Positions 3-13,771 of a stretch of 64,000 nt of DNA are shown here, one piece after another. How positions within the stretch are numbered: position 1 is the stretch's first letter; each line of letters starts with the position of its first letter. Source of the stretch: Neolewinella agarilytica. GTDB taxonomy: Bacteria; Bacteroidota; Bacteroidia; Chitinophagales; Saprospiraceae. The stretch spans positions 124,001 through 188,000 of the forward strand of contig NZ_FOFB01000012.1 in assembly GCF_900110645.1 (NCBI RefSeq), written 5' to 3'. Below the pieces are notes generated by a model. It ran no database searches and was not told where the DNA came from. It saw nothing but the letters and a program-made list of their open reading frames with translations. A program made the translations under genes and the position numbers.

Positions 3-125
3 AATATGTTCTACTGGGCGATTAAGCAGGACAAAAAGCAGTTTCCCCGCATTCAACGCCAGCTCGAAACCGCTACTGCCGCCATCAAAGTGGCCATCCG
101 TACCTATAAAATCCCGAAAGCATGA
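3..125 (+). CDS. 3' end of a gene upstream of cmr6, probably cmr5 (partial)
   Basis: An open frame enters from the left edge and gives 40 codons ending ...YKIPKA before TGA. Its stop overlaps the start of the next gene in an ATGA junction, so the two are translationally coupled. The visible end is a basic amphipathic helix beginning NMFYWAIKQD. In type III-B operons cmr5, a small all-helical subunit, commonly precedes cmr6, so Cmr5 is the natural guess. The fragment has no diagnostic motif, so the assignment rests on gene order. Confidence 0.5.
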   Translation, partial: NMFYWAIKQDKKQFPRIQRQLETATAAIKVAIRTYKIPKA

Positions 126-1693
126 ACCAGACGACAAACCCCGGGCTGCTATATTCTCGCTTCTATTTCGATGATCAATACGATGAGGTACTGGATCAAG
201 CATCCTGGTTGAAAACCTTAGAACAACGACACGAGGCTGCCGAAGACGTCAAGGAAAAAGAGCACGAAGAACGGGAAGAACGAAACCGACAATGGGCGAA
301 AAAAAAGAATAAACAATTTACTCCAAAAGACTTTCGCCGCGCTACCTTCCGGACGCCAAGAATTGGTGGCTTTAGCCAGAAATACCTGCTAGATCCGCCA
401 GACAAAAAAAGGCAACCTACCGAATTCAAAGCCTACAACAATCACTTCAGCCTCCGCAACCACCAGCTGTTCACCACCAGGTTAACTAATGAGGCCAGTA
501 AGCAGAACCGCGAAGTCTACCGTGGCCGACAAGCAAGCGGTTTCGAATTAACCACCACCTACCCGGGCCTTCTTGTCGGCTTGGGCTACAGCCATGCTGT
601 TTCCGCCGAGCAAGCCCTCAATGCTGGTTTTTCCTTCGATCACACCACCGGCCTGCCCGTCATCCCCGGAGCTACCGTTAAGGGCATCCTTCGATCCGTA
701 TTCCCACAACGGGATCATGACCGGGCCACCGACGCTAAACCGGAAAAAAAGGACTGGTACCGCAACACCGCCAAGGCTAAAATCGCCTGGCTGCAGCAGG
801 CGCTTACTGGAATCGTGGGGAAAGAGAGAAGCGATAAGCTGGACCTGAAAGTACTGGAAGCGGAACTGTTCGACAGTCGATCCACCCCACTGGCGCAGCC
901 TATTTTCCACGATGCCCTGGTGGTGGCGGCCTCCGGTGATCTCTTTGGCCCCGATAACATCACTCCGCACGTACACTATGCGGAGGGAGAAAACGTGCCG
1001 CCCGACCGCTACAAAAACCCGACGCCCATCAGTATGCTCAAGGTCATGCCTGGCGTCTCTTTCTCCTTCGCTTTCCGGCTGCCGGACCAACTGACCCAGC
1101 CCGATAAAGACGGGAAGGTTGCCCTAAGCCTTACCGCCGAGGAAATTCGCCGACTCTTTCAAGCCATCCTGCTGGAATACGGCGTAGGGGCAAAATCACG
1201 CCTCAATTATGGACGGTTCGTAGAGGAAACTATTGACTTTCCTTCGGCTGAGAAGTTGGATGCAGATTTAGCCACCTTTAGAAATTTCGAAACAGAAGCC
1301 TTTAGGAGTGCTACCATCACTGATAAGCGCAGTAACCGCCAACAAAATCAGGCGAAAGGCAACGATCGTGAGCGTAGACGGGATGAACGGGAAGACCCAA
1401 AGCTACGTGCTATCCGTCGTGAAGCAGAGCAGCGCAAGCGCGAAGCAGAAGAACAAAAGAATAAGCAGCCCAAAGTAACTGGGAAAACCGTTGTGCTGAC
1501 CTATGAAGGAAAATTTGGTAAATGGCACTCCTTTAAGGTTTCGGGGCAAACTCAAAAGCTAACCCTGAAAAGCAAAGCGGTTATGGCGCTAGCCCCTCTG
1601 GAAAAAGGCAAGCAGTACCACGCAGTCGTAACGGCAAGAGATAGCGGTCTGCCGGGGTCTCCGGTTATCGGCGTTGAATTCATTGCGGAGTAA
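122..1693 (+). CDS. cmr6: Type III-B CRISPR RAMP protein Cmr6 with long C-terminal extension
   Basis: A 523-aa RAMP-superfamily protein. The core (about residues 115-390) has the Cmr6 signature: a GLGYSHAVSAEQA stretch, then LPVIPGATVKGILRSVF near residue 180, the conserved P-G-S/T-x-hK-G-hhR motif of Cmr4/Cmr6 proteins, and a late glycine-rich GVGAKSRLNYGRF loop near residue 355. Cmr6 caps the Cmr effector complex that binds crRNA and cleaves target RNA. Oddities: an N-terminal charged stretch of about 60 residues, then after the RAMP core a lysine/arginine/glutamate-rich helix (about 390-450) and a small predicted beta domain of about 70 residues ending EFIAE. Family members usually lack this tail and are 250-350 aa. 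It overlaps the upstream gene by 4 nt and lies 27 nt before the Cas6-like gene. Confidence 0.88.
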   Translation: MNQTTNPGLLYSRFYFDDQYDEVLDQASWLKTLEQRHEAAEDVKEKEHEEREERNRQWAKKKNKQFTPKDFRRATFRTPRIGGFSQKYLLDPPDKKRQPTEFKAYNNHFSLRNHQLFTTRLTNEASKQNREVYRGRQASGFELTTTYPGLLVGLGYSHAVSAEQALNAGFSFDHTTGLPVIPGATVKGILRSVFPQRDHDRATDAKPEKKDWYRNTAKAKIAWLQQALTGIVGKERSDKLDLKVLEAELFDSRSTPLAQPIFHDALVVAASGDLFGPDNITPHVHYAEGENVPPDRYKNPTPISMLKVMPGVSFSFAFRLPDQLTQPDKDGKVALSLTAEEIRRLFQAILLEYGVGAKSRLNYGRFVEETIDFPSAEKLDADLATFRNFETEAFRSATITDKRSNRQQNQAKGNDRERRRDEREDPKLRAIRREAEQRKREAEEQKNKQPKVTGKTVVLTYEGKFGKWHSFKVSGQTQKLTLKSKAVMALAPLEKGKQYHAVVTARDSGLPGSPVIGVEFIAE

Positions 1694-1720: not shown

Positions 1721-2467
1721 ATGCAAATCGTAACCCTAACCTTCCCCTTCTCCCTCCACCCCGGAGATATCCCTAAACTCCGCGCTGCCATCATCGGCTG
1801 TCTTGGCACTGGTCATCATTTGTTCAATGGCTTCGACAACTCCGAGCAGGGCGTGGAAAAATACAGCAATGCTTACCCCCTCGTTGAGTACAGCGTTTAC
1901 AAGGGTAAGGCCCGTATCCAGGGCATTGGCACTGGGGCAGATGCCATCCTTCGCTACCTGCTTACGGCACTACCGGATGATCTCCTCATCGGAGAACGCT
2001 ACTGCCGCACCACCGACTTTAAGCTCGAGGTGTCTACCTGGACACCCGAACTGCTACCTGAACAATTCACCTTCGGCCTCTACCAATACCTCCCCCTCAA
2101 CAAAAAAAACTACAAAGCCTGGAAAGCACTGGAAGGTAACGAACCTGCCCGCCTGGAACTCCTCGGCTCCTGCCTCACCGGCCACCTCCGGGCACTCGCC
2201 GAAACTGCGGACCCCAACCTCGATCGCAAGCAAATCGAAGCCCGCATCCTTAGCGTAGACAAGGTGAAAATGACCCGTTGGCACGGGAATCAGTTCGTAA
2301 CGTTCAACTTGGTGGCCTGTGCTAACTTCATCCCGCCCTTCGGCCTCGGTGTTGGACGATGCCACAGCTTCGGCTTCGGAGAGGTTTGTGGCAAGGAGCG
2401 GTACGCTCGGCTTTCTGCCTCCAGGCGTCAGTCTAAAAAAGAGGTGGCCAGTACCATTACAAAGTGA
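1721..2467 (+). CDS. cas6: Cas6-like crRNA-processing endoribonuclease
   Basis: A 248-aa protein starting at an ATG 27 nt after cmr6. Its C-terminal third carries FGLGVGRCHSFGFGEV (about residues 206-221), the glycine-rich loop of Cas6/RAMP endonucleases. The N-terminal half matches the layout of the Bacteroidota Cas6b-type group, with LPDDLLIGERYCRTTDFKL in the middle. Cas6 cleaves the repeat transcript to give crRNAs with an 8-nt 5' handle; here the expected handle is ATTCCGAC. No catalytic residue can be fixed by eye; histidines near 136 and 191 are candidates. It directly precedes leader 1, so the gene, its substrate arrays and cmr6 form one unit. Family assignment is firm, the subfamily is inference. 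Confidence 0.8.
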   Translation: MQIVTLTFPFSLHPGDIPKLRAAIIGCLGTGHHLFNGFDNSEQGVEKYSNAYPLVEYSVYKGKARIQGIGTGADAILRYLLTALPDDLLIGERYCRTTDFKLEVSTWTPELLPEQFTFGLYQYLPLNKKNYKAWKALEGNEPARLELLGSCLTGHLRALAETADPNLDRKQIEARILSVDKVKMTRWHGNQFVTFNLVACANFIPPFGLGVGRCHSFGFGEVCGKERYARLSASRRQSKKEVASTITK

Positions 2468-2570
2468 CGTGGCGGCGTACTTTATGCATCGCTACAACGT
2501 GATAATCGCCATTAATCACCTCTTCTAAAATTGACATAAAAACCGTATTTTCAAGCTTACGTAAGCGATT

Positions 2571-2648
2571 TAAATCATATTATGAATTCTGCCATACATT
2601 TTTTATTTCGCAATTGTATTGATAATCAGGTAGTTACAAAAAATAGCT
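2571..2648 (+). promoter_or_regulatory. CRISPR leader 1
   Basis: An A+T-rich 78-nt stretch directly before the first full repeat. It is closely similar over its whole length to 6737-6814, before the other leader-proximal array. Both share AATTCTGCCATACATTTT, then TGATAATCAGGT, and end in TAGCT at the repeat. Duplication of this block only before the two intact first repeats marks it as the leader, so transcription and spacer insertion are expected here. A CTTACGTAAG palindrome lies just upstream at 2556-2565. Confidence 0.8.
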
Positions 2649-3072
2649 CCCGGAGTCACTGTGTGCCGCAATAGGGCATTCCGACATTCTGGTCGCGGTA
2701 AAACCGCTCATACTCCCGGAGTCACTGTGTGCCGCAATAGGGCATTCCGACCCCTTGAACGGTTAGGATTTTTTGTTCCCGGAGTCACTGTGTGCCGCAA
2801 TAGGGCATTCCGACTTTCCCGACCAAAAGTACCAAAGACAGCCCGGAGTCACTGTGTGCCGCAATAGGGCATTCCGACAGTTGAGGATAATGACCAGCAC
2901 CGCGAGCCCGGAGTCACTGTGTGCCGCAATAGGGCATTCCGACTCATAAGAATTGTATTTATAGTTCAATCTCCCCGGAGTCACTGTGTGCCGCAATAGG
3001 GCATTCCGACTCTTTTCCGAATTTACGACCTAGAGAGTCCCGGAGTCACTGTGTGCCGCAATAGGGCATTCC
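2649..3072 (+). CRISPR. CRISPR array 1 (7 repeats, 6 spacers; last repeat truncated)
   Basis: 37-nt repeats begin CCCGGAGTCACTGTG and end GGGCATTCCGAC. They start at 2649, 2715, 2778, 2842, 2907, 2974 and 3039, with spacers of 26-30 nt. All carry A at repeat position 22 (CGCAATAGGG). The seventh breaks off after about 34 nt and runs into the interspersed element at 3073. Short TGCC/GGCA complementarity sits just before the 3' tail, as expected for a Cas6 substrate, giving a probable crRNA handle ATTCCGAC when read on the plus strand. Confidence 0.97.
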
Positions 3073-3362
3073 AGAATACTAGTCATCCCAATCCCACCGC
3101 TTTTGAGTCCGGCGGAAAAGGAAGTGACACCTCCCTTCGGTCGGCTTACATTTCCCTTTCCGTCGGCCGCGGCGGGCTTGTGCTGACGGGCCGTTTTGGT
3201 GAGGTTAGTTAGGGGTTATAATTCTATCATTCTACAAAATTCCATTACCCTGATTTCTTTGTTATTAGGCTGGCGAATAATCTTTTGGATGTCGTTAATA
3301 GTCCAGGGCCCCAAGGCGCAAATGTTGAATTTTAAATGTTGAATTGAACATTGAAAATTGCT
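3073..3362 (+). repeat. Inter-array element, copy 1
   Basis: A 290-bp non-CRISPR segment fused directly to the truncated last repeat of array 1 and ending at the first repeat of array 2. It recurs at 3797-4089, 7725-8017 and, shortened, at 8874-9067. All copies start with CCAGAAT(A/G)CTAGTCATCC; copies 1-3 end in an ATGTTGAATT tract and TTGAAAATTGCT. A central imperfect hairpin lies at about 3095-3175. No terminal inverted repeats, transposase or convincing ORF is present. Confidence 0.9.
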
Positions 3363-3796
3363 CTCGGAGTCACTGTGTGCCGCAATAGGGCATTCCGACG
3401 CTAAAAGCTCGAAAATTGCCCTTGGTTAAACCCGGAGTCACTGTGTGCCGCAATAGGGCATTCCGACTCAAATAGAGTTCCATCTAGGTTACTTACCCGG
3501 AGTCACTGTGTGCCGCAATAGGGCATTCCGACTACTCTGACACCTTGTCAGTCTGTTTCTACTCCCGGAGTCACTGTGTGCCGCAATAGGGCATTCCGAC
3601 CTTGCTGAAACTTAAAGTTCAAGCTAGAGAAAACCCGGAGTCACTGTGTGCCGCGATAGGGCATTCCGACACATGGAAAGTTTTGAAGAACCCAGCGATC
3701 CCGGAGTCACTGTGTGCCGCGATAGGGCATTCCGACTTACCATTTTTGCCAGGAGTCTGGTCTTGCTCGGAGTCACTGTGTGCCGCGATAGGGCAT
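3363..3796 (+). CRISPR. CRISPR array 2 (7 repeats, 6 spacers; repeat type switches midway)
   Basis: Repeats start at 3363, 3431, 3496, 3564, 3634, 3700 and 3766, with spacers of 28-33 nt. The first is degenerate at position 2 (CTCGGAG). The last has the same change and is cut after position 31 (GGGCAT), then runs into AACCAGAATAC. The first four repeats carry A at position 22, the last three carry G, the form used throughout arrays 3 and 4. No leader precedes this array; the inter-array element does. Confidence 0.96.
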
Positions 3797-4089
3797 AACC
3801 AGAATACTAGTCATCCCAATCCCACCGCTTTTGAGTCCGGCGGAAAGGGAAGCGACACCTCCCTGCGGTCGGCTTACATTTCCCTTTCCGTCGGCCGCGG
3901 CGGGCTTGTGCTGACGGGCCGTTTTGGTGAGGTTAGTTAGGGGTGATAATTCTATCATTCTGCGAAATTCCATTACCCTGATTTCTTTGTTATTAGGCTG
4001 GCGAATAATCTTTTGGATGTCGTTAATAGCCCAGGGCCCCAGGCGTAAATGTTGAATTTTAAATGTTGAATTGAACATTGAAAATTGCT
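3797..4089 (+). repeat. Inter-array element, copy 2
   Basis: Nearly identical to copy 1 over about 290 bp, beginning AACCAGAATACTAG directly after the truncated last repeat of array 2. The central hairpin (about 3822-3905) pairs CCGGCGGAAAGGGA with TCCCTTTCCGTCGG. Its right end joins a single decayed CRISPR repeat. An antisense open frame of about 100 codons runs through this copy, but the frame is not kept in the other copies, so I do not call it a gene. Confidence 0.9.
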
Positions 4090-4118
4090 CTCGGAGTCAC
4101 TGTGTGCCGCAATAGGGT
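4090..4118 (+). CRISPR. Orphan degenerate CRISPR repeat
   Basis: A solitary repeat beginning CTCGGAGTCACTGTG, with the A-type CGCAATAGGG core and a broken 3' end (GGGTATCC). It has the same first-repeat change (C2 to T) as the first repeats of arrays 2 and 4. It looks like the stump of a lost array after element copy 2. Unique sequence follows up to the RT gene. Confidence 0.85.
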
Positions 4119-4282
4119 ATCCGCCAGGATGGTCGCAAGTTGCCCCGCGAGGCGAAGCGGTCCTCGAAGCGTCCTGGAAGGACCTTCGAGCGTCCGTGTT
4201 CCTTCATTGCACCTGCGCACCGGCGCCCCCATCCCATCGGCCTCCGCCCCCTGTCCATTATCTTACATACAAAAAGGAACAC

Positions 4283-5380
4283 ATGGCTAAGAAGGTAAGC
4301 ATCTACGAATTACGGCGCCGCGCCAATAGTTTTCTGGCCTGTAAGGGCACGCTTGACCTCGCCCGCCACTGGCGGGTCGATAATGTACGTCTGGCGGTAT
4401 TGGCCATTGAGCCCGAATACCGGGAGTTCCGCATCCCCAAAAAGAAACCCGGCACCTTTCGCGAAATCGAAGACCCGCGCCCAAAACTGAAGGCCATTCT
4501 TCGTAAGCTCAACCGCGATCTCCAGGCGGTTTATTACTTTCAGCGATCGCCGGCTGCGTACGGCTTTCTCACCAGCCCGGCCAGGGATCCCGACCCCCGC
4601 AATATCCTCACCAATGCCCAGCAACACCTCGGGGCCAAGTGGCTGATGAACGTAGACATGCGGGACTTCTTCCACCAGATCGAAACCCACGAAGTAGCGG
4701 AACTATTCCGGCAGCCGCCCTTCTCTTTTCCTAAAGCAACCGCCAAGTTGCTGGCCGGCCTCACCACCTACAAAGGCCGCCTGCCAATGGGCGCACCCAC
4801 CAGCCCCATCCTTAGCAATTGGTACGCCATTCCGCTGGATAAGACCCTAACGGAATTCGCCCGGCAGCGAGAATGGACCTACACCCGCTATGCCGACGAC
4901 ATCACCTTCAGCAGCAAAACCTCCCCCATAAAGTTTGAAGACGTTGGCCGGGTCAACGTCCTGGTCAGGGGGCGGGAGCTAGAACTCAATCATAATAAAA
5001 CTGTAATCTACCCGCCCGACGCCCCGGGGAAGGAGGTGACCGGGCTGATCGTCGGGGCCGAACAAGTACAGCTTTCCAGCGAATTTCTGGCTAAAGTGAA
5101 GGATGGTCTGCGGCGGCTCAACGATGTGGTCGATACCAAATACCTCATGCCCAGCGGCCGCTTGGCCAAAACACCTTGGGTGGAGGAGATTGCGCAGCAG
5201 GTACGCGGCCTGGTCTCTTTCGCCCAAAAAGTCTTGCCCCCGGCTGACCCTCTGGGCATGGAACTCGAAGAAGCCTACGCTACGGCACTGGCACCACCGC
5301 AAAACTATGGCCCCGTATCGTGGCTGGAGTTTGGCTACCTCGATTTCAGAATCGATACGAACCCTGACCAAATCAAGTAA
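4283..5380 (+). CDS. CRISPR-associated reverse transcriptase (stand-alone)
   Basis: A 365-aa reverse transcriptase of the retron/group II intron-like class. Visible are KPGTFREIEDP near residue 55, the palm aspartate in LMNVDMRDFF (D125), GRLPMGAPTSPILSN (166-179) and the YADD box (203-206). The ATG at 4283 follows an AAGGA purine tract by a few bases; the frame stays open back into the orphan repeat, but that stretch is not RT-like. It ends 10 nt before cas1. In RT-containing type III systems the RT lets the Cas1-Cas2 integrase acquire spacers from RNA. Here the RT is separate rather than fused to Cas1, and no maturase or endonuclease domain is visible, arguing against a mobile intron. Confidence 0.9.
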   Translation: MAKKVSIYELRRRANSFLACKGTLDLARHWRVDNVRLAVLAIEPEYREFRIPKKKPGTFREIEDPRPKLKAILRKLNRDLQAVYYFQRSPAAYGFLTSPARDPDPRNILTNAQQHLGAKWLMNVDMRDFFHQIETHEVAELFRQPPFSFPKATAKLLAGLTTYKGRLPMGAPTSPILSNWYAIPLDKTLTEFARQREWTYTRYADDITFSSKTSPIKFEDVGRVNVLVRGRELELNHNKTVIYPPDAPGKEVTGLIVGAEQVQLSSEFLAKVKDGLRRLNDVVDTKYLMPSGRLAKTPWVEEIAQQVRGLVSFAQKVLPPADPLGMELEEAYATALAPPQNYGPVSWLEFGYLDFRIDTNPDQIK

Positions 5381-5390
5381 ATTGATCCTT

Positions 5391-6386
5391 ATGCAGCTTG
5401 TCTTACACACCCACGGCCTGAGGCTGGACGTTGCCGCCGGTATTTTTCACCTGACGGACGGGGAGCACGAGCGATCCATCAGTCCGGAACTAATTGACAG
5501 TATCTCCGTTCTTTCCGGCGACTGCCTGCTCACCGCCCGCGCCGTTCGGCTGGCCGCAGCGGCGGAAGTACCGATCTATTTCCACGACGACTTTGGCGAG
5601 GCCGATGCCTGCCTTCGCAGCGCCTACTTCGAAAGCCTGGCCCGGCGGCGGCGCGGACAAGTGTACTTCAGCGACTCCGTGGCCGGCGCCGCCTGGGTCG
5701 TAGCCCAGTTTTTACTGAAGACGGATGCTCAGGTGGATAACCTACGCTACCTGTCCAACCGCCGGAAAAAGCATTCGGAGGAATTGGGCGCTGCCGCAGG
5801 TGCAATGGAAAAGACAAAAGAGCATTGGGAGGCACTCGCAAAGCAAAAGCCCTCTCCGAAATGGGCAAGTCAGGTCATGGGCCACGAAGGAGCCATCGCC
5901 CGTACCTACTGGCAAGCCTTATCCGCTGCGCTGCCTGCCGAATGGCAATTCGCTGGCCGTAGCCGCCGCCCCGCCCAGGACCCTTACAACGCCCTGACCA
6001 ACTACTGCTACGGCATCCTCTACGCCCGGGTCGAGCGGACGCTCTTCGCCGCTGGTCTCGACCCTCACCTCGGCATTCTGCACGCCGATGAATACGACCG
6101 ACCAACCCTCGCCTACGACCTCATCGAGCCCTTTCGCCCCTGGGTAGATCGCTTCCTCCTCCAGCAAATCCTGCAGTTTAAACTCGACCTCGCCACCGTC
6201 GAAGCCCGCGACGGCGGCTGGTGGATCACCCACGCCGCCAAAAAAGAACTCGTCCCCAATTTCAATCAGTATTTCCAAGGTCTCACCCTTTGGCGCGGCC
6301 AGCGCGCTAAGCGAGAAGGACAAATTTACCGCCATGCCCAGGATCTAGCCCGCACCATCGACTCTTCTACCCAACGCCCCAATTGA
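5391..6386 (+). CDS. cas1: CRISPR integrase Cas1
   Basis: A 331-aa Cas1. The metal-binding residues are visible: E166 in MGHEGAIARTYW, H231 in LGILHADEYDRP and the acidic pair D243/E246 in AYDLIEPFRP. The N-terminal beta domain starts MQLVLHTHGLRLDV. Cas1 forms the integrase complex with Cas2 and inserts prespacers next to the leader. The ATG at 5391 is preferred; the frame extends upstream only as an overlap of the RT gene. The next gene begins at the cas1 stop (TGATG), so RT, cas1 and cas2 form one operon. Confidence 0.96.
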   Translation: MQLVLHTHGLRLDVAAGIFHLTDGEHERSISPELIDSISVLSGDCLLTARAVRLAAAAEVPIYFHDDFGEADACLRSAYFESLARRRRGQVYFSDSVAGAAWVVAQFLLKTDAQVDNLRYLSNRRKKHSEELGAAAGAMEKTKEHWEALAKQKPSPKWASQVMGHEGAIARTYWQALSAALPAEWQFAGRSRRPAQDPYNALTNYCYGILYARVERTLFAAGLDPHLGILHADEYDRPTLAYDLIEPFRPWVDRFLLQQILQFKLDLATVEARDGGWWITHAAKKELVPNFNQYFQGLTLWRGQRAKREGQIYRHAQDLARTIDSSTQRPN

Positions 6387-6700
6387 TGAGTATGCAAACC
6401 TACCTTATCTCCTACGACATCTCCGAAAATAACCCCCGGCTCAAAGCTAGCAGATTACTGCTGCGCGCTGGCTGCTTCCGCGTTCAAAAATCCGTCTTCA
6501 TCGGCACCCTTTCCGATACCCGTTACCTTCGCCTGCGTAAAAGTCTCGATGCACTCCGGCAGCGGCCCCGCTGGTCGACCACCGATCAAATCCTCCTCTT
6601 GCCTCTGCACCAGTACACCCGTGATAATCTCGACACCATCGGCTCCTCCCGCAACGATTGGCCCCTCATTTTTCGCGAGCTGCATACCTTGGTTATTTAA
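6386..6700 (+). CDS. cas2: CRISPR-associated Cas2
   Basis: A 104-aa Cas2 with the ferredoxin-like start MQTYLISYDIS, including the conserved Asp after the first beta strand, then GCFRVQKSVFIG and DQILLLPL. The ATG at 6386 overlaps the last base of cas1. A second ATG at 6392 is equally plausible and gives MQTYLISYD at the N terminus. Cas2 is the structural dimer at the centre of the adaptation complex. It ends 36 nt before leader 2, so this array pair lies directly next to the acquisition machinery. Confidence 0.95.
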   Translation: MSMQTYLISYDISENNPRLKASRLLLRAGCFRVQKSVFIGTLSDTRYLRLRKSLDALRQRPRWSTTDQILLLPLHQYTRDNLDTIGSSRNDWPLIFRELHTLVI

Positions 6701-6736
6701 CCCAAAACACCTATTTTACCATCGATTTGATGCGTT

Positions 6737-6814
6737 TTAATCATATTATAAATTCTGCCATACATTTTAATGCTTATTATTGGGCTGATAATCAGGTGTT
6801 TATGAAAATTAGCT
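6737..6814 (+). promoter_or_regulatory. CRISPR leader 2
   Basis: The counterpart of leader 1 (2571-2648), including ATCATATTATAAATTCTGCC, TGATAATCAGGT and a terminal TTAGCT at the first repeat. It lies between cas2 and array 3. The duplication implies that both leader-proximal arrays can be transcribed and receive new spacers. Confidence 0.8.
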
Positions 6815-7724
6815 CCCGGAGTCACTGTGTGCCGCGATAGGGCATTCCGACAAACCGTATTTGAATTTATGTTGATTTTCATATTCCCGGAGTCACTGTG
6901 TGCCGCGATAGGGCATTCCGACATGCGTATATCGCAAATAGTGAAACAATAAACCCGGAGTCACTGTGTGCCGCGATAGGGCATTCCGACTTTAATAACA
7001 TAACAAATCTGTCATCATCTACCCCGGAGTCACTGTGTGCCGCGATAGGGCATTCCGACCTTTTAAGTGTCTCTTCGCAATCCCATACGCACCCGGAGTC
7101 ACTGTGTGCCGCGATAGGGCATTCCGACAGAAAGATTCCTAACTAAGATCTCTCTAAACCCGGAGTCACTGTGTGCCGCGATAGGGCATTCCGACTCTAA
7201 TTTCAGTTTGGATAGATTGTCTTCTGCCCCCGGAGTCACTGTGTGCCGCGATAGGGCATTCCGACAAGCTCCTCAATTTCGCCTTTCTTTAGGAACCCGG
7301 AGTCACTGTGTGCCGCGATAGGGCATTCCGACATATTGGCGTCTCTCCGAAGTATCTTTTAACCCGGAGTCACTGTGTGCCGCGATAGGGCATTCCGACA
7401 AGAAATTTGTATTTTTGTTCCCAATTATCCCGGAGTCACTGTGTGCCGCGATAGGGCATTCCGACGCAATTGGTTTATATCTGTTATCCATTCCCGGAGT
7501 CACTGTGTGCCGCGATAGGGCATTCCGACAAGTTGATTACGATCATTTGGTACCAACAAACCCGGAGTCACTGTGTGCCGCGATAGGGCATTCCGACAAC
7601 TAGGACCTTCATTACATTGTTCTGGAGACCCGGAGTCACTGTGTGCCGCGATAGGGCATTCCGACATAAATCTAAAGACAAATAGGATTAAGACCCGGAG
7701 TCACTGTGTGCCGCGATAGGGCAT
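6815..7724 (+). CRISPR. CRISPR array 3 (14 repeats, 13 spacers; last repeat truncated)
   Basis: Repeats start at 6815, 6886, 6954, 7023, 7092, 7159, 7229, 7296, 7363, 7429, 7493, 7561, 7629 and 7694. Spacers are 27-34 nt. All are of the G22 type (CGCGATAGGG) and otherwise essentially identical. The last stops after position 31 (GGGCAT) and continues as AACCAGAATACTAG. Several antisense and sense open frames through the array encode only translated repeats and are not genes. Confidence 0.97.
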
Positions 7725-8017
7725 AACCAGAATACTAGTCATCCCATTCCCGCCGCTTTAGCGTCCGTCAAAAACGCAATCGACACCTCCCTTCGGTCGG
7801 CTTACGCTCGCGTTTTTGGCGGACGCGGCGGGCCATGAGCTGACGGTCCGTTTCGGTAGGGTTGGTGGGTTGAATTCTAAAAATCCTACCAAAATCCAAT
7901 TAATCCTAATCTATTGGTTATTGGGCTTGTGGATGATCTTGTGGATACCGTCGATGATCTTCGGGCTTGCGATGAAATGTTGAATTTTAAATGTTGAATT
8001 GAACATTGAAAATTGCT
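7725..8017 (+). repeat. Inter-array element, copy 3 (diverged, covarying hairpin)
   Basis: Same start and same 3' tract (ATGTTGAATTTTAAATG and TTGAAAATTGCT) as copies 1 and 2, but the middle has diverged. The central hairpin (about 7749-7832) has a new stem sequence, GCGTCCGTCAAAAACGC pairing with GCGTTTTTGGCGGACGC, around the conserved GACACCTCCCT.CGGTCGGCTTAC core. This is pairing preserved despite sequence change. Confidence 0.9.
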
Positions 8018-8873
8018 CTCGGAGTCACTGTGTGCCGCGATAGGGCATTCCGACGATACGATGATTGTGGACGCGCAAAGTTGCCCCGGAGTCACTGTGT
8101 GCCGCGATAGGGCATTCCGACATTTTGTTGGTGATATATCGTTGTTAATTATCCCCGGAGTCACTGTGTGCCGCGATAGGGCATTCCGACAGAAGGAAAT
8201 AAATTCGTTGTAACGTCATTGGTTCCCGGAGTCACTGTGTGCCGCGATAGGGCATTCCGACAGTTTACTTTGTTTTCGAGCTGTCGCGCGTACCCGGAGT
8301 CACTGTGTGCCGCGATAGGGCATTCCGACTCTCCGTGGTTTAGTAAATGTCGAGCAAGGCCCCGGAGTCACTGTGTGCCGCGATAGGGCATTCCGACTCG
8401 GTCTCCGTTACGAGGAGCATGTCGTACCCCCCGGAGTCACTGTGTGCCGCGATAGGGCATTCCGACAATTTGTGGTGTTTTACGGTGAATGGTGAAACCC
8501 GGAGTCACTGTGTGCCGCGATAGGGCATTCCGACATTTTATATCGCGATGCTCAATGCAGTGGGTACACCCGGAGTCACTGTGTGCCGCGATAGGGCATT
8601 CCGACCTGTTTCTTTATCGCCCAAATTTTCACAGACCCCGGAGTCACTGTGTGCCGCGATAGGGCATTCCGACCAGGGATGTTGACCTCCTCTCCTTTCC
8701 ACCCACGCCCGGAGTCACTGTGTGCCGCGATAGGGCATTCCGACCCGAGTGAGTCGGTCCATACGTACGTGTAGGGCCCGGAGTCACTGTGTGCCGCGAT
8801 AGGGCATTCCGACTTAAACATGCCTGGAATTTTACTTCTAATCCCGGAGTCACTGTGTGCCGCGATAGGGCAT
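8018..8873 (+). CRISPR. CRISPR array 4 (13 repeats, 12 spacers; first degenerate, last truncated)
   Basis: Repeats start at 8018, 8085, 8154, 8225, 8293, 8361, 8430, 8498, 8569, 8637, 8708, 8777 and 8843, with spacers of 29-34 nt. The first has the C2-to-T change seen in the first repeat of array 2. The last is cut after GGGCAT. All are of the G22 type. Like array 2, it is preceded by the inter-array element, not a leader. Confidence 0.97.
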
Positions 8874-9067
8874 AACCAGAATGCTAGTCATCCCAATCCC
8901 ACCGCTTTTGAGTCCGGCGGAAAGGGAAGTGACACCTCCCTGCGGTCGGCTTACTATTGCGTTTTCAACGGACGCGGCTGAAATGGGCTGACGGGGTTGC
9001 TTCGGCTGAGATGGTTGGTGGGAATTTTAGAATCCTAAAAATCCTACCTAATCCTTTTAATCCTACC
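8874..9067 (+). repeat. Inter-array element, copy 4 (3'-truncated, chimeric hairpin)
   Basis: Begins AACCAGAATGCTAGTCATCC at the truncated last repeat of array 4. The left arm of the central hairpin is the copy 1/2 type (GTCCGGCGGAAAGGG); the right arm (TGCGTTTTCAACGGACGC) is the copy 3 type, so the stem no longer pairs. Similarity to copy 3 continues through AATCCTAAAAATCCTACC and fades near 9067. The terminal ATGTTGAATT tract and a following array are missing. Confidence 0.8.
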
Positions 9068-9434
9068 GCGAAGCAGCTACGAAGTGAATCTATCGGTTTT
9101 GAGGCAAGTGAAATTCTAAGGTTCTAGAGACTGTCTGGACGCCTCGGTTCAATCGCCAATCAAGAATCGAGAACAGCAAATCGCATATCTTTGAGGAGCC
9201 ATGTGTGCCGACAAAAGGCACTGCGACGGGTCATTCCTACCTACGCAAGGCCCAAGCTCCTGCAACGCCCCCACCGCTCTTTCATCCCCCGCCTTGCACC
9301 TGCGCTCCGTCGCCCGGATACGCTTAACAACGTATTTGTCTACGGGCCAGGAAAACCACTTGACACGTATCGAAAATAGTCCCATATTTACGCGTAGCTT
9401 TAATGCTGACGTTTACACACCTACCGATCAACCC
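9068..9434 (+). other. Intergenic stretch with a CRISPR-repeat-like fragment and a -7 box
   Basis: No gene is supported here. At 9200-9227, ATGTGTGCCG-ACAAAAGGCA-CTGCGAC resembles the last 28 nt of the CRISPR repeat (TGTGTGCCG, GGCA and CGAC conserved) and may be a decayed repeat. TATCTTTG at 9186-9193 fits the Bacteroidota -7 consensus TAnnTTTG and could serve the OmpA-family gene at 9435. Confidence 0.5.
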
Positions 9435-12185
9435 ATGCGTTTACTCCTGTTTTTCCTCCTGCTCTTTCCCCTGCTGCTCTGCGGACAACTCAAGAAAGCC
9501 GACAAATTAGTCGGAAAAGGAAAGTATGAAAAGGCGCTCCCGCTCTACGATGAGCTGCGCAACAGCACCGATAGTGTAGAACGGGCCGCCGCGCTGTTCG
9601 GCTACACCAAAAGCTTCGCCAAGCTGAATACCACGGCTGAAGCTTTACCCACTATTCTGGATCTGCAGCAGGAAAGTAGCCGCTTCTTTCGGGCACTCAG
9701 CCAAGAAAAACGAAAGACCCTGAGCAAAACCTGGCGGCGCAGCGACCGCAGCCTCGCCACCCAGGAAAAGATATTGTGTAAACGACTGATTCGGGATCTG
9801 GGGCGATGCAACGTCACGTCCTTGTTCTCGGAGATGCTGGACCTGCTAAGCCACCGAAGCTGGTCACCGGAGTCAAAAGACCTCCTGAACGTCGCCTATG
9901 GCGAGCGGGAAGCAAGGCTGCTGAACGAGGAGCTAACCGCTGCCGTTGAAGGCGGACTCGTAGGACTACGCCGCTGGTCCGAAGAACAACAAGGCCGCTA
10001 CTGGGGGGGCTCTGCCCTGAGAACCATCGGCGCGCTGCGGGAAAGGCTGGTCCGGGAAATCGTCAATAACCCCAAGGCGACTTACGACGATTTACGGGAG
10101 GTCTACAACCACCATTTTCAAACCGAATCGGCCCTGAACCCCCGGTTTCAAAGTTTGATCAATGGCCGGCTGCTTGAAGTATTTCTGTCGGAAAACCCCG
10201 TGTCTGACTTTTACCGCTTCGTGGAGGAAAACCCCGTTCACTGGGTCGCCAAAGATTGCTACGTCGATGAACTCGCCGCTATCTTGAAAAATGATGATTG
10301 GCATAAGCTAACGAACTTCCTGGACGATCACCCCTACAGCGTGCTGGACGAGTTTGTCGTCGGCGTCGTCTATGAAGGGATGACTCAGATCAGACAACTT
10401 CCCGGCGCCGATCAGGCCGCCCTCGACCGCATCAAGGCCGAAATCACCGTCCGCCGCAAGGTCCTCAACGAAAATGATACTTCCCAGGAAACTTACCTCC
10501 AGCTGGCCAACCTCCTGCAGGAGACCGTCCCCGCCACCCGCTGCCACGCCATCTTCCGCCGGGCCGCTCAGGTCTATCTCAAGCAGCAGGAATGGGAACT
10601 GCTGGACGAACTCGTCGCCCTCGGTAAACAACTCTTCGTCAACGGGCAGCCAGACGATTGCGATAGGAACTGGATCCTCTACGAAGACAAGCAACCCTGG
10701 CTGGCGGATGTAGAGGAGATCCTCCGGCAGAACGCTTTTCCTACGAGGTCAGCTGTCGTCGAAGAAGCCAGCGTCCCGGAGGTCGACGAATACAGCCCCG
10801 TCATCACCGCCGACGACGAGCACTTGTTCTTCGCCCGCTACCGTGGCGGCGCCGCTACCTATGATGTCGTGGTCTCCGACCGGAACAAGCAAGGACAATG
10901 GAAAAAGCCGCGGGCCATCCCCGCACTGTCCTCCGAAAAAGCCAACGAAGTGCCGCTCGCAGTCACCGCCGCCGGCAACGAGATGTTGCTCTTCCTCGAC
11001 GGGCGGCTCGCCCGCAGCGTCCGCACGGGCTCAAAATGGTCAGCGCCCCAACCGTTAACCGGATCGATCGCAAATATGGACTGGCACGGCGCAGCAACCC
11101 TCTCGCCCGATGGCCAATTCCTCATCCTCGAATCCAACTACAATGTCGGCGACCAAACCGAACGCGCCGATACCGACCTCTATCTCGCCAGGCGCGTAGC
11201 TCCCGGCAGCTTCGATGTCGTCACGCCGCTAATGAAGCTCAATACGGACAGGCGCGAAACCAGCCCCTACATTAGCCCCGACGGCCGCACGCTCTACTTC
11301 AGCTCCGACGGGAGAAAGGGCCTCGGGGGCACGGACGTATACGTCGTTCGCCGCGAGGATAACACCTGGCGAAACTGGTCTACGCCCCAAAACTTCGGCA
11401 AGTCCGTCAACTCTTTCTTCGACGACAGCGACTTCCGGCTCGCCACCTCCGCCAGCGGTAGGGTAGGCTATTACGGTATCAACATCAGTAATGACTTGCT
11501 GAGCGGAGACATCTTCTCCGCCGAACTGCCCGAAGAAGTTCGTCCCGAACCTTTCCGCATCGTCAAGTTGCCCGTCAGCTGGTCCGATTCCCTCTCCGCC
11601 GCCGAACGGGACGGTTTCAAGGTGACCGTCCGCTCCCCCGACGGAAGCGTGCTCTCCGGCAGCGCTGTCGTCGACGGACAAGTCGTCCTCCTCCTCCCCG
11701 AAAGCCTCGATAACGCCGAGATCACCCTCACCAACGCCCCTGACTCCGAAACCGCCATCCTGCCCGTCACCCTACCCGTTGACCTGAGCGAAGGGCGCCT
11801 CCTGACGCCCGTCGTCGTCAATACCCTCGACAACATCCGCCGCCACGGCGAACGCATCCGGCTCGTCCAACCCTACAACATCAACCAGGACGATTTCACC
11901 CCCACCCCCGAAACCCAGCAACAGCTGCAGGACGTCTATACCCTGCTCCGCGAAACCGGCCTCAACGTCACCATCCACGCCTACTCCGACGCCACCGGAA
12001 CCCCGGAATACAACCGGGAGCTCTGTCAGCGCCGCGCCGATGCCGTCCGCGCCTACCTCATCGCCCAGGGCCTCGCCCCCGAACGCATCCAAATCAAGGC
12101 CCACGGTAGTGAAGACTTTATCGATACCAATGATACCGAGGAGGGGCAGGGAAGGAATAGGCGGGTGGAGTTGGAGGTGGGGTAG
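9435..12185 (+). CDS. PD40/OmpA-family envelope protein
   Basis: A 916-aa envelope protein. The start at 9435 gives a clear signal peptide (MRLLLFFLLLFPLLLCGQLKK); the open frame extends further upstream without signal or homology features. Residues about 20-420 are helical and TPR-like (KADKLVGKGKYEKALPLYDEL). A PD40/WD40-like propeller follows, with YSPVITADDEHLFFARY (about 455), ATLSPDGQFLILESNYN and TSPYISPDGRTLYFSSDGR. The last 110 residues form an OmpA peptidoglycan-binding domain (HAYSDATGTPEYNRELCQRR and GRNRRVELEVG). This layout is common in Bacteroidota gliding/T9SS accessory proteins such as PorE. A specific T9SS role is inference. Confidence 0.85.
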   Translation: MRLLLFFLLLFPLLLCGQLKKADKLVGKGKYEKALPLYDELRNSTDSVERAAALFGYTKSFAKLNTTAEALPTILDLQQESSRFFRALSQEKRKTLSKTWRRSDRSLATQEKILCKRLIRDLGRCNVTSLFSEMLDLLSHRSWSPESKDLLNVAYGEREARLLNEELTAAVEGGLVGLRRWSEEQQGRYWGGSALRTIGALRERLVREIVNNPKATYDDLREVYNHHFQTESALNPRFQSLINGRLLEVFLSENPVSDFYRFVEENPVHWVAKDCYVDELAAILKNDDWHKLTNFLDDHPYSVLDEFVVGVVYEGMTQIRQLPGADQAALDRIKAEITVRRKVLNENDTSQETYLQLANLLQETVPATRCHAIFRRAAQVYLKQQEWELLDELVALGKQLFVNGQPDDCDRNWILYEDKQPWLADVEEILRQNAFPTRSAVVEEASVPEVDEYSPVITADDEHLFFARYRGGAATYDVVVSDRNKQGQWKKPRAIPALSSEKANEVPLAVTAAGNEMLLFLDGRLARSVRTGSKWSAPQPLTGSIANMDWHGAATLSPDGQFLILESNYNVGDQTERADTDLYLARRVAPGSFDVVTPLMKLNTDRRETSPYISPDGRTLYFSSDGRKGLGGTDVYVVRREDNTWRNWSTPQNFGKSVNSFFDDSDFRLATSASGRVGYYGINISNDLLSGDIFSAELPEEVRPEPFRIVKLPVSWSDSLSAAERDGFKVTVRSPDGSVLSGSAVVDGQVVLLLPESLDNAEITLTNAPDSETAILPVTLPVDLSEGRLLTPVVVNTLDNIRRHGERIRLVQPYNINQDDFTPTPETQQQLQDVYTLLRETGLNVTIHAYSDATGTPEYNRELCQRRADAVRAYLIAQGLAPERIQIKAHGSEDFIDTNDTEEGQGRNRRVELEVG

Positions 12186-12781: not shown

Positions 12782-13771
12782 ATGGAAGCTCCTAAACCCA
12801 AAATATTCAATATACTTACCATCGATGGAGGAGGTATTCGTGGATTATACGCCGCGAAAGCGCTTGAGCAAATAGAACGGCAATACGGCCCTCTGATCAA
12901 TAGCTTTAACCTCATTTGTGGAACATCCACCGGCGGCCTGATCGCATTAGGACTCTCCCTTGGTCTATCCGCCCAACAACTCGCCAACTTTTACAGTAAA
13001 CGTGGCGACAAAATATTCCCTCGCAAGCATTGGCTCACACGCGGTTACGGCTTCGCTCGGCAAGCATTCTTCAACGGATATTCAAGCAAAAAACTACGCA
13101 GAGAGGTCATCGCAATTTTCGGGGAAGAACTTACTATGTCTGATTGCAAAGTCCCGACCTGTATCTTTTCCTACAATATTTCTAAGGGTGAACCAATCGT
13201 TTTCAAGTCACCCCACCAGCATGCCGATTACGTTCGCGACGGTAACCTCCCAATTGTAGACGTGGCCATGGCGACGGCTTCGGCCCCTACATTCTTCCGT
13301 AACCACCACATTGATCATGATCACCTGCCGGATACGCTTTGCACCGACGGAGGGGTCTGGTGCAACAACCCATCCCTGGCCGGACTACTCGAAGCCCGAA
13401 CGCACTTTGTTGGAAACGGCAAACCATTCGACAGCATAAGAGTCCTATCCATTTCCACCGCTCCCAAACCTTCGGGAAAACAGCGAAAGGGTGGGGGGCT
13501 TCTCCGCTGGAAAGGAGACATGATGGGGGCTGCTATCCAGGGCCAGTCTTTCTTCGCTAATCGGTTTCTGAATAACCTGAACGATAATCCGGAATCTGGT
13601 GTGAGCTACCGTAGGATTGCGCCTAAGAACCTATCCATCGAGCAACAAAAGCTACTCGAAATGGATCTCGCCTCCCCCAAAGCCCTCAACCAACTCGCCC
13701 GCCTTGGCACCGATTGCGGACAGCATTTCGTAACCCAGCAAGCTGCTTGGCTCAGCTCCGTTTTTCAATAA
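12782..13771 (+). CDS. capV: CBASS effector: patatin-like phospholipase (CapV type)
   Basis: A 329-aa patatin-family lipase. Visible are the oxyanion loop DGGGIRG (15-21), the nucleophile elbow GTSTGG with S49, and the catalytic Asp in DGGVWCNNP (D189). CapV enzymes are activated by a cyclic nucleotide from the neighbouring CD-NTase and degrade the cell's own membrane phospholipids, causing abortive infection. No signal peptide is seen, in line with a cytosolic effector acting on the inner membrane. It lies 27 nt before the CD-NTase gene, with the E2-like gene after that: effector, synthase, E2. Confidence 0.9.
   Translation: MEAPKPKIFNILTIDGGGIRGLYAAKALEQIERQYGPLINSFNLICGTSTGGLIALGLSLGLSAQQLANFYSKRGDKIFPRKHWLTRGYGFARQAFFNGYSSKKLRREVIAIFGEELTMSDCKVPTCIFSYNISKGEPIVFKSPHQHADYVRDGNLPIVDVAMATASAPTFFRNHHIDHDHLPDTLCTDGGVWCNNPSLAGLLEARTHFVGNGKPFDSIRVLSISTAPKPSGKQRKGGGLLRWKGDMMGAAIQGQSFFANRFLNNLNDNPESGVSYRRIAPKNLSIEQQKLLEMDLASPKALNQLARLGTDCGQHFVTQQAAWLSSVFQ

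Follow-up and report, generated by a model that had tools for sequence, protein, structure and literature searches.

A multi-copy hairpin element between the repeats of a Neolewinella CRISPR locus, and sequence-unrelated hairpin units in other Saprospiraceae genera

In this study, we analyzed a 64,000-nt stretch of the Neolewinella agarilytica genome (GCF_900110645.1, contig NZ_FOFB01000012.1, positions 124,001-188,000 of the forward strand; hereafter "the window"), which holds part of a type III-B locus of clustered regularly interspaced short palindromic repeats (CRISPR): a Cmr6-like protein, Cas6b, an array, a reverse transcriptase (RT), Cas1, Cas2 and a second array. Within these arrays lies an element of ~290 bases that forms a long hairpin and is present in four copies, all in a single orientation and every one flanked by repeats on both sides. 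At about even confidence, we favour the explanation of an inter-array unit that recombination between the repeats has multiplied. As a new observation, CRISPR arrays in some other genera of the family (Saprospiraceae) hold, or end in, different hairpin units of unrelated sequence, also in arrays with other repeats and without an RT. With sequence-unrelated units occupying the equivalent place in these genera, the array ends of this family seem to have gained hairpin units repeatedly.

The four copies (Table 1) confirm the initial annotation, which had described four ~290-bp copies at the arrays, in one orientation and joined to a repeat. It had further placed them at array breaks; copy 4 is not a bare array end, since a degenerate repeat follows it. 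Copies 1-3 each occupy a 287-base slot between two repeats, and the right boundary of copy 4 is the relic repeat. Identity to copy 2 is 97% for copy 1, 77% for copy 3 and, over the first 120 bases, 88% for copy 4. Left of copies 2, 3 and 4, the 37-nt repeat breaks off at position 31 (GGGCAT joined to AACCAG), as had been annotated for three of the four left junctions, and the repeat left of copy 1 differs from these (GGGCATTCC joined to AGAATAC). The right end AAAATTGCT is common to copies 1-3, and the repeat that comes next begins CTCGGAGTC. Of the 42 repeats, 38 begin with CCC and four with CTC, namely the three that follow copies 1-3 and the truncated one to the left of copy 2. Common descent is indicated by the left cut that copies 2-4 share and by the right end and CTC repeat that copies 1-3 share. 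In comparison, the 37 ordinary slots contain 37 different spacers.

Inside array 1, the repeat type switches from CAATAGGG to CGATAGGG at 3564-3634, the CGATAGGG repeats starting only at 3634; we read the two types as younger and older, respectively. Copy 1 is flanked by CAATAGGG repeats. As this is the type adjoining leader 1, copy 1 probably arrived late, assuming growth of the array from its leader end. The relic repeat beyond copy 4 is of an older array type: its score was 41 against the repeats of G006, 38 against those of G180 and 35 against those of G023, all related genomes, compared to 26 against the window's own repeats, and 2189 other stretches of the window scored at most 22. At the leader/repeat boundary, the end of leader 2 can be aligned over 13 bases with the right end of copies 1-3 (12 matches, one gap). 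The score of this alignment was 19, compared to at most 16 for ordinary spacer ends, and 41 of 2000 shuffles were as good.

In line with the initial annotation, the element shows neither terminal inverted repeats nor a transposase. Aligning the first with the reverse-complemented last 40 bases of copies 1-3 gave a score of 8, which was reached by 998-999 of 1000 shuffles, and no transposase was found among the seven proteins scanned near the element. With regard to a target-site duplication, the left repeat is truncated and no intact empty site is on record. A comparison of positions 2400-9500 with Rfam yielded a single, chance-like match (U6atac, 8673-8708) and none to the element.

Next, we consider the hairpin itself. 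The stem of copy 1, CCGGCGGAAAAGGA, contains one A.C mismatch, which corrects the earlier description of identical stems in copies 1 and 2. Between copies 1/2 and copy 3 the arms differ and pairing is kept within each, as had been noted; this does not extend to copy 4, which combines a copy-2-like left arm with a copy-3-like right arm and has lost 4 of 14 core-stem pairs. This chimera shows that recombination has taken place within the unit, and that the copy at the array end, at least, tolerates a broken stem. Overall, both sides changed in 5 of the 24 pairs, compared to a shuffled mean of 2.2, with 11 of 500 shuffles reaching five in an alignment of four rows only; sliding the partner left 0-1 such pairs. 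Folding z-scores were -1.6 for copy 1, -4.7 for copy 3 and -2.7 for copy 4. The tip remained unchanged while both arms changed, in agreement with the fixed loop core of the initial annotation, and contains the motif CTNCGG with a variable N, which we take to fit a UNCG tetraloop. Allowing up to three mismatches, the tip occurs four times in the window (0.21 expected); the 6.2-Mb genome holds four occurrences, and a reversed-pattern control gave none. The paired arm changes thus suggest the selection on structure that had been proposed at first. They do not prove it, because there are only four copies, one stem is broken and template-switch repair of imperfect palindromes would give the same covariation.

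Comparable units were found in arrays of other genera. Among 125 loci, nine were flagged for gaps >150 bp and six were kept as real slot inserts (the window, G236, two of G062, G023 and G046). Rejected were L148, a non-CRISPR repeat, L139, a run of N, and, as a slot insert, L223, where the inserts sit inside repeats. The array totals of 99 and 103 are inexact, as some arrays (e.g. L094, L211) were counted repeatedly when two seed words hit one array.

In genome G236, at least 10 hairpin units bounded by whole or shortened repeats are found in the arrays of a single contig. Searching this genome yielded 23 matches, of which 16 are in or near arrays on three contigs and seven, of 26 bases, are elsewhere; two of these three contigs (C81, C84) differ in their repeats and show no RT within the stretch read. 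In the one-contig genome G062, all unit matches (14/14) lie in or adjoin arrays of two regions, and a 29-base hairpin insert is found inside repeats at five places, all of them in array regions (L134 5489-8926; L094 6598-7024). Both genomes share a layout in which a hairpin TCCCGRT...AYCGGGA is directly followed by a second hairpin starting with CTA, and in G100 an array ends in a shortened repeat plus a TCCCGAT...ATCGGGA hairpin. The last repeat is 1-6 bases short and followed by a hairpin in G062, G100, G236 and G023. Analogous units are carried by G023 and G046. In the latter, the unit is preceded by a whole repeat and followed by a shortened one, and its combination with a repeat end is also present on two more array-bearing contigs (C25 and C43, four loci checked); a 31-bp piece inside this unit is dispersed across the genome. 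Within the window's own genus, G006 shows four of the last repeats of an array each with an internal 23-base hairpin insert (L223, about 3130-3590). A 53-base match in G218 had no array in the 1 kb read, and the trailers of L077, L088 and L091 fold well, with z-scores down to -4.8. Such array-restricted hairpin units are not described in the titles and abstract openings covered by our literature search, with most subscription journals outside its scope.

Based on these results, CRISPR arrays seem to gather and copy hairpin units. For the element in the window, we favour one ancestral unit copied via the repeats because the junctions are common, copy 4 is chimeric and repeats are present on both sides. 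The common junctions and the 37 all-different spacers fit the copying of one repeat-bounded unit, and an independently mobile DNA hairpin, one of the options in the initial annotation, is not supported. As read from the sequence, the unit would consist of the worn 3' end of a terminal repeat, a hairpin trailer, an AT-rich leader-like end and a repeat, which we read as the trailer of one array joined to the leader-like end of the next. Since it is bounded by repeats, it may act like an oversized spacer, and homologous recombination, both between repeats and between copies of the unit, would have multiplied it in each array and carried it from one array to the other, a route that is probable rather than directly seen. 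The unit would then be transcribed as a stable hairpin, located inside the precursor CRISPR RNA (pre-crRNA) or at its end. Judging from its position and the hairpin, we would guess that its role is to terminate, insulate or protect the transcripts of arrays, and the truncated repeat tag presumably keeps it from yielding usable CRISPR RNA. More tentatively, the arrays of this family could carry array-restricted hairpin units of genus-specific sequence that multiply only between repeats, either as selfish passengers (by array recombination or RT-Cas1-Cas2) or as structured RNA parts of long type III arrays.

Several observations weigh against the favoured explanation. Real slot inserts are a minority feature (6/125 loci), and the second CRISPR locus of the same genome (C27, 59 repeats) has no insert. 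The CTC variant is not confined to post-element repeats, as it is also present in the truncated repeat left of copy 2, and the leader resemblance is short and equalled by 2% of shuffles. The broken stem is tolerated in copy 4. Finally, a terminator scan showed no excess (6 sites, compared to 7.5 in shuffles), with terminator-like sites within copies 1 and 2 only.

It is conceivable, though somewhat unlikely, that the unit is neutral debris. Array ends would decay and duplicate, and template-switch mutation would perfect palindromes and imitate covariation; the copying route would be the same and a function is denied. The lost pairing in copy 4, the low number of copies, the 11 of 500 shuffles that reach the observed covariation, the generic tail and the absence of any such unit from the majority of arrays are all consistent with this explanation. 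However, the tip remained constant while both arms changed, and similar layouts recur in other genera, both of which argue against it. The probabilities we attach to the different explanations overlap and do not add up to one.

A small palindromic mobile element, of the repetitive extragenic palindrome (REP) or miniature inverted-repeat transposable element (MITE) kind, could also have settled in an array and afterwards been carried along with it. This and the favoured explanation can overlap, with insertion as the origin and repeat recombination as the means of spread; we regard a mobile origin as unlikely. Besides the hairpin form, it would fit the dispersed 31-bp piece in the array units of G046 and the 29- and 23-base hairpin inserts in repeats of G062 and G006. 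A further point in its favour is a metagenome-assembled genome (MAG) of the Deltaproteobacteria (L026, L031, L032, L033), in which four dispersed copies of a non-CRISPR perfect hairpin have a tip sharing 18 bases with the element. Their contiguous stems span 12-18 bp, compared to a background frequency of 0.0004 for at least 12 bp, and the N of the tip varies among the copies. The distribution of the element speaks against such an origin. While the initial annotation had named abundant copies away from CRISPR arrays as the finding that would tell against an array element, in the own genome element and tip are confined to these arrays (4/4 copies), save for a 47-base AT-rich tail piece on contig C65. 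In addition, copies 1-3 have no terminal inverted repeats, and the five 29-base inserts of G062 are all in array regions of a genome that is a single contig.

Beyond the own genome, no copy of the element was found in 297 other genomes of the family, ten of which match the AT-rich tail alone (all multi-genome DNA searches scored two candidates per genome). The same genomes gave one three-mismatch tip match, without matching arms. The exact tip is likewise absent from 295 other genomes of the phylum, where one tip match with one mismatch was obtained, and the element was absent from the phage and plasmid searches. In GTDB contigs, the 22-base core matched no stretch and a shorter core 11, four of which represent the one hairpin family of the MAG; as we estimate ~7 chance matches for 18 fixed bases, most of the other stretches count as chance. 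Viral contigs contained 2 stretches with the 22-base core and 11 with the shorter core. Four of these stretches (L024, L025, L038, L041) fold as hairpins around the tip, with flanking stems of 6, 3, 5 and 6 bp that are matched by 5-89% of random places and were given little weight. L027, the sole array flagged by a simple finder in the 22 core-matching loci, was rejected as CRISPR due to uneven spacing and repeated flanks.

The proximity of the RT raises the question whether the unit is the template RNA of this enzyme, copied to DNA and placed in the arrays by Cas1-Cas2. By sequence, the nearest solved relatives of the RT are the retron Kva2 and Ec86 RTs, and its best PADLOC models are RT-TIR_XII and RT-Protease_XI, which we take to be retron types. 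RT relatives (E ≤1e-40) were detected in 34 of 298 family genomes, the own included, and some of the related proteins are named Neolewinella, Haliscomenobacter, Lewinellaceae or Saprospiraceae. Cas1 adjoins the RT in 20/20 fetched RT loci; in the window, the RT is directly followed by cas1 and cas2. In favour of a template, copy 2 lies 196 bases upstream of the RT, and the copies are on the same strand in spacer-like slots. No clear separate retron RNA and no common sequence were seen upstream of the RT in 21 loci, where folding had a mean z-score of -1.5 compared to -0.4 for 72 random pieces (letter shuffles). Of the five further genomes that carry units or trailer hairpins, four (G062, G100, G236 and G023, not G046) also have the RT, a biased count as RT loci were viewed first. 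However, among the 14 fetched RT loci that have arrays, 11 lack both a slot insert and a TCCCG trailer (the array end is outside the stretch in several), and units are found at arrays without an adjoining RT (G236, C81 and C84) and in G046, which has no RT match at 1e-40. Together, these observations weaken the template explanation. Moreover, Cas1-Cas2 integration during spacer acquisition should leave whole repeats, whereas the junction repeats are shortened, and overall we consider this origin very unlikely.

The features of the locus are compiled in Table 1, together with the arrays of G236 that hold hairpin units. Near the CRISPR locus, the window further encodes a patatin-like phospholipase (12782-13771) with strong matches to PADLOC 'Effector' phospholipase models.

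Table 1. Features of the CRISPR locus in the window, and arrays with hairpin units in genome G236.
Feature	Position	Strand	Remarks
Cmr6-like RAMP protein	122..1693	+	
Cas6b	1721..2467	+	
Leader of array 1	2569..2648	+	
CRISPR array 1	2649..4122	+	repeats CAATAGGG, then CGATAGGG; contains copies 1 and 2
Element copy 1	3073-3362	+	in array 1, half nearer the leader; flanking repeats of the CAATAGGG type
Element copy 2	3797-4089	+	one degenerate repeat after it; RT gene 196 bases further on
Element copy 3	7725-8017	+	within array 2; stem different but paired
Element copy 4	8874-9194	+	far end of array 2; recognisable to about 9060; stem broken
Hairpin region	3085..3196 (copy 1); equivalents 3813-3924, 7741-7853, 8889-9001	+	
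Hairpin tip ACACCTCCCTNCGGTCGGC	3127-3145, 3855-3873, 7783-7801, 8932-8950	+	
Retron-type reverse transcriptase	4286..5380	+	
Cas1	5391..6386	+	
Cas2	6383..6700	+	
Leader of array 2	6735..6814	+	end TGAAAATTAGCT(C), resembling the element right end TGAAAATTGCT(C)
CRISPR array 2	6815..8873	+	CGATAGGG repeats; contains copy 3, ends at copy 4
Relic CRISPR repeat	9195..9227	+	downstream of copy 4
Arrays with hairpin units in G236	L085 3011-5200 and 13826-15700; L135 4577; L136		

Should hairpin units restricted to arrays prove real and recurrent, arrays would be spacer lists plus copied structural parts. This would bear on how the long pre-crRNAs of type III systems are terminated, split or protected, on the duplication and recombination of arrays, and on the template of the retron-type RT beside Cas1.

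Comparing the element to known systems, it resembles a CRISPR leader and a trailer with terminal degenerate repeat, as it follows a terminal repeat with a decayed 3' end and has a leader-like end; in contrast to these, it is located inside arrays, in several copies and with a long hairpin. It shares with the msr-msd RNA of retrons that a structured element is present at a retron-type RT locus, with copy 2 upstream of the RT, but the other copies do not adjoin the RT and comparable units exist at arrays without one. For the CRISPR locus of Haliscomenobacter hydrossis, the part of PMC5541045 considered here describes a retron-like RT and suggests that such RTs may be recent retrotranspositions. 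This agrees with our RT in that both are retron-like enzymes next to CRISPR-cas and that the relatives found here include Haliscomenobacter proteins, whereas the presence of cas1 beside the RT in 20/20 loci differs from a recent retrotransposition. REP palindromes and bacterial interspersed mosaic elements (BIMEs), as outlined in parts of PMC3733652, are likewise short, extragenic, multi-copy hairpins; the element differs by its ~290 bp and by the location of 4/4 copies in arrays instead of dispersed intergenic sites. CreTA modules, which are described for type I systems in the portions used of PMC8501985 and PMC9458426, likewise show a non-spacer segment enclosed by degenerate repeats at a CRISPR locus. 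Compared by layout alone, the element is distinguished from them as a multi-copy hairpin in a type III-B locus.

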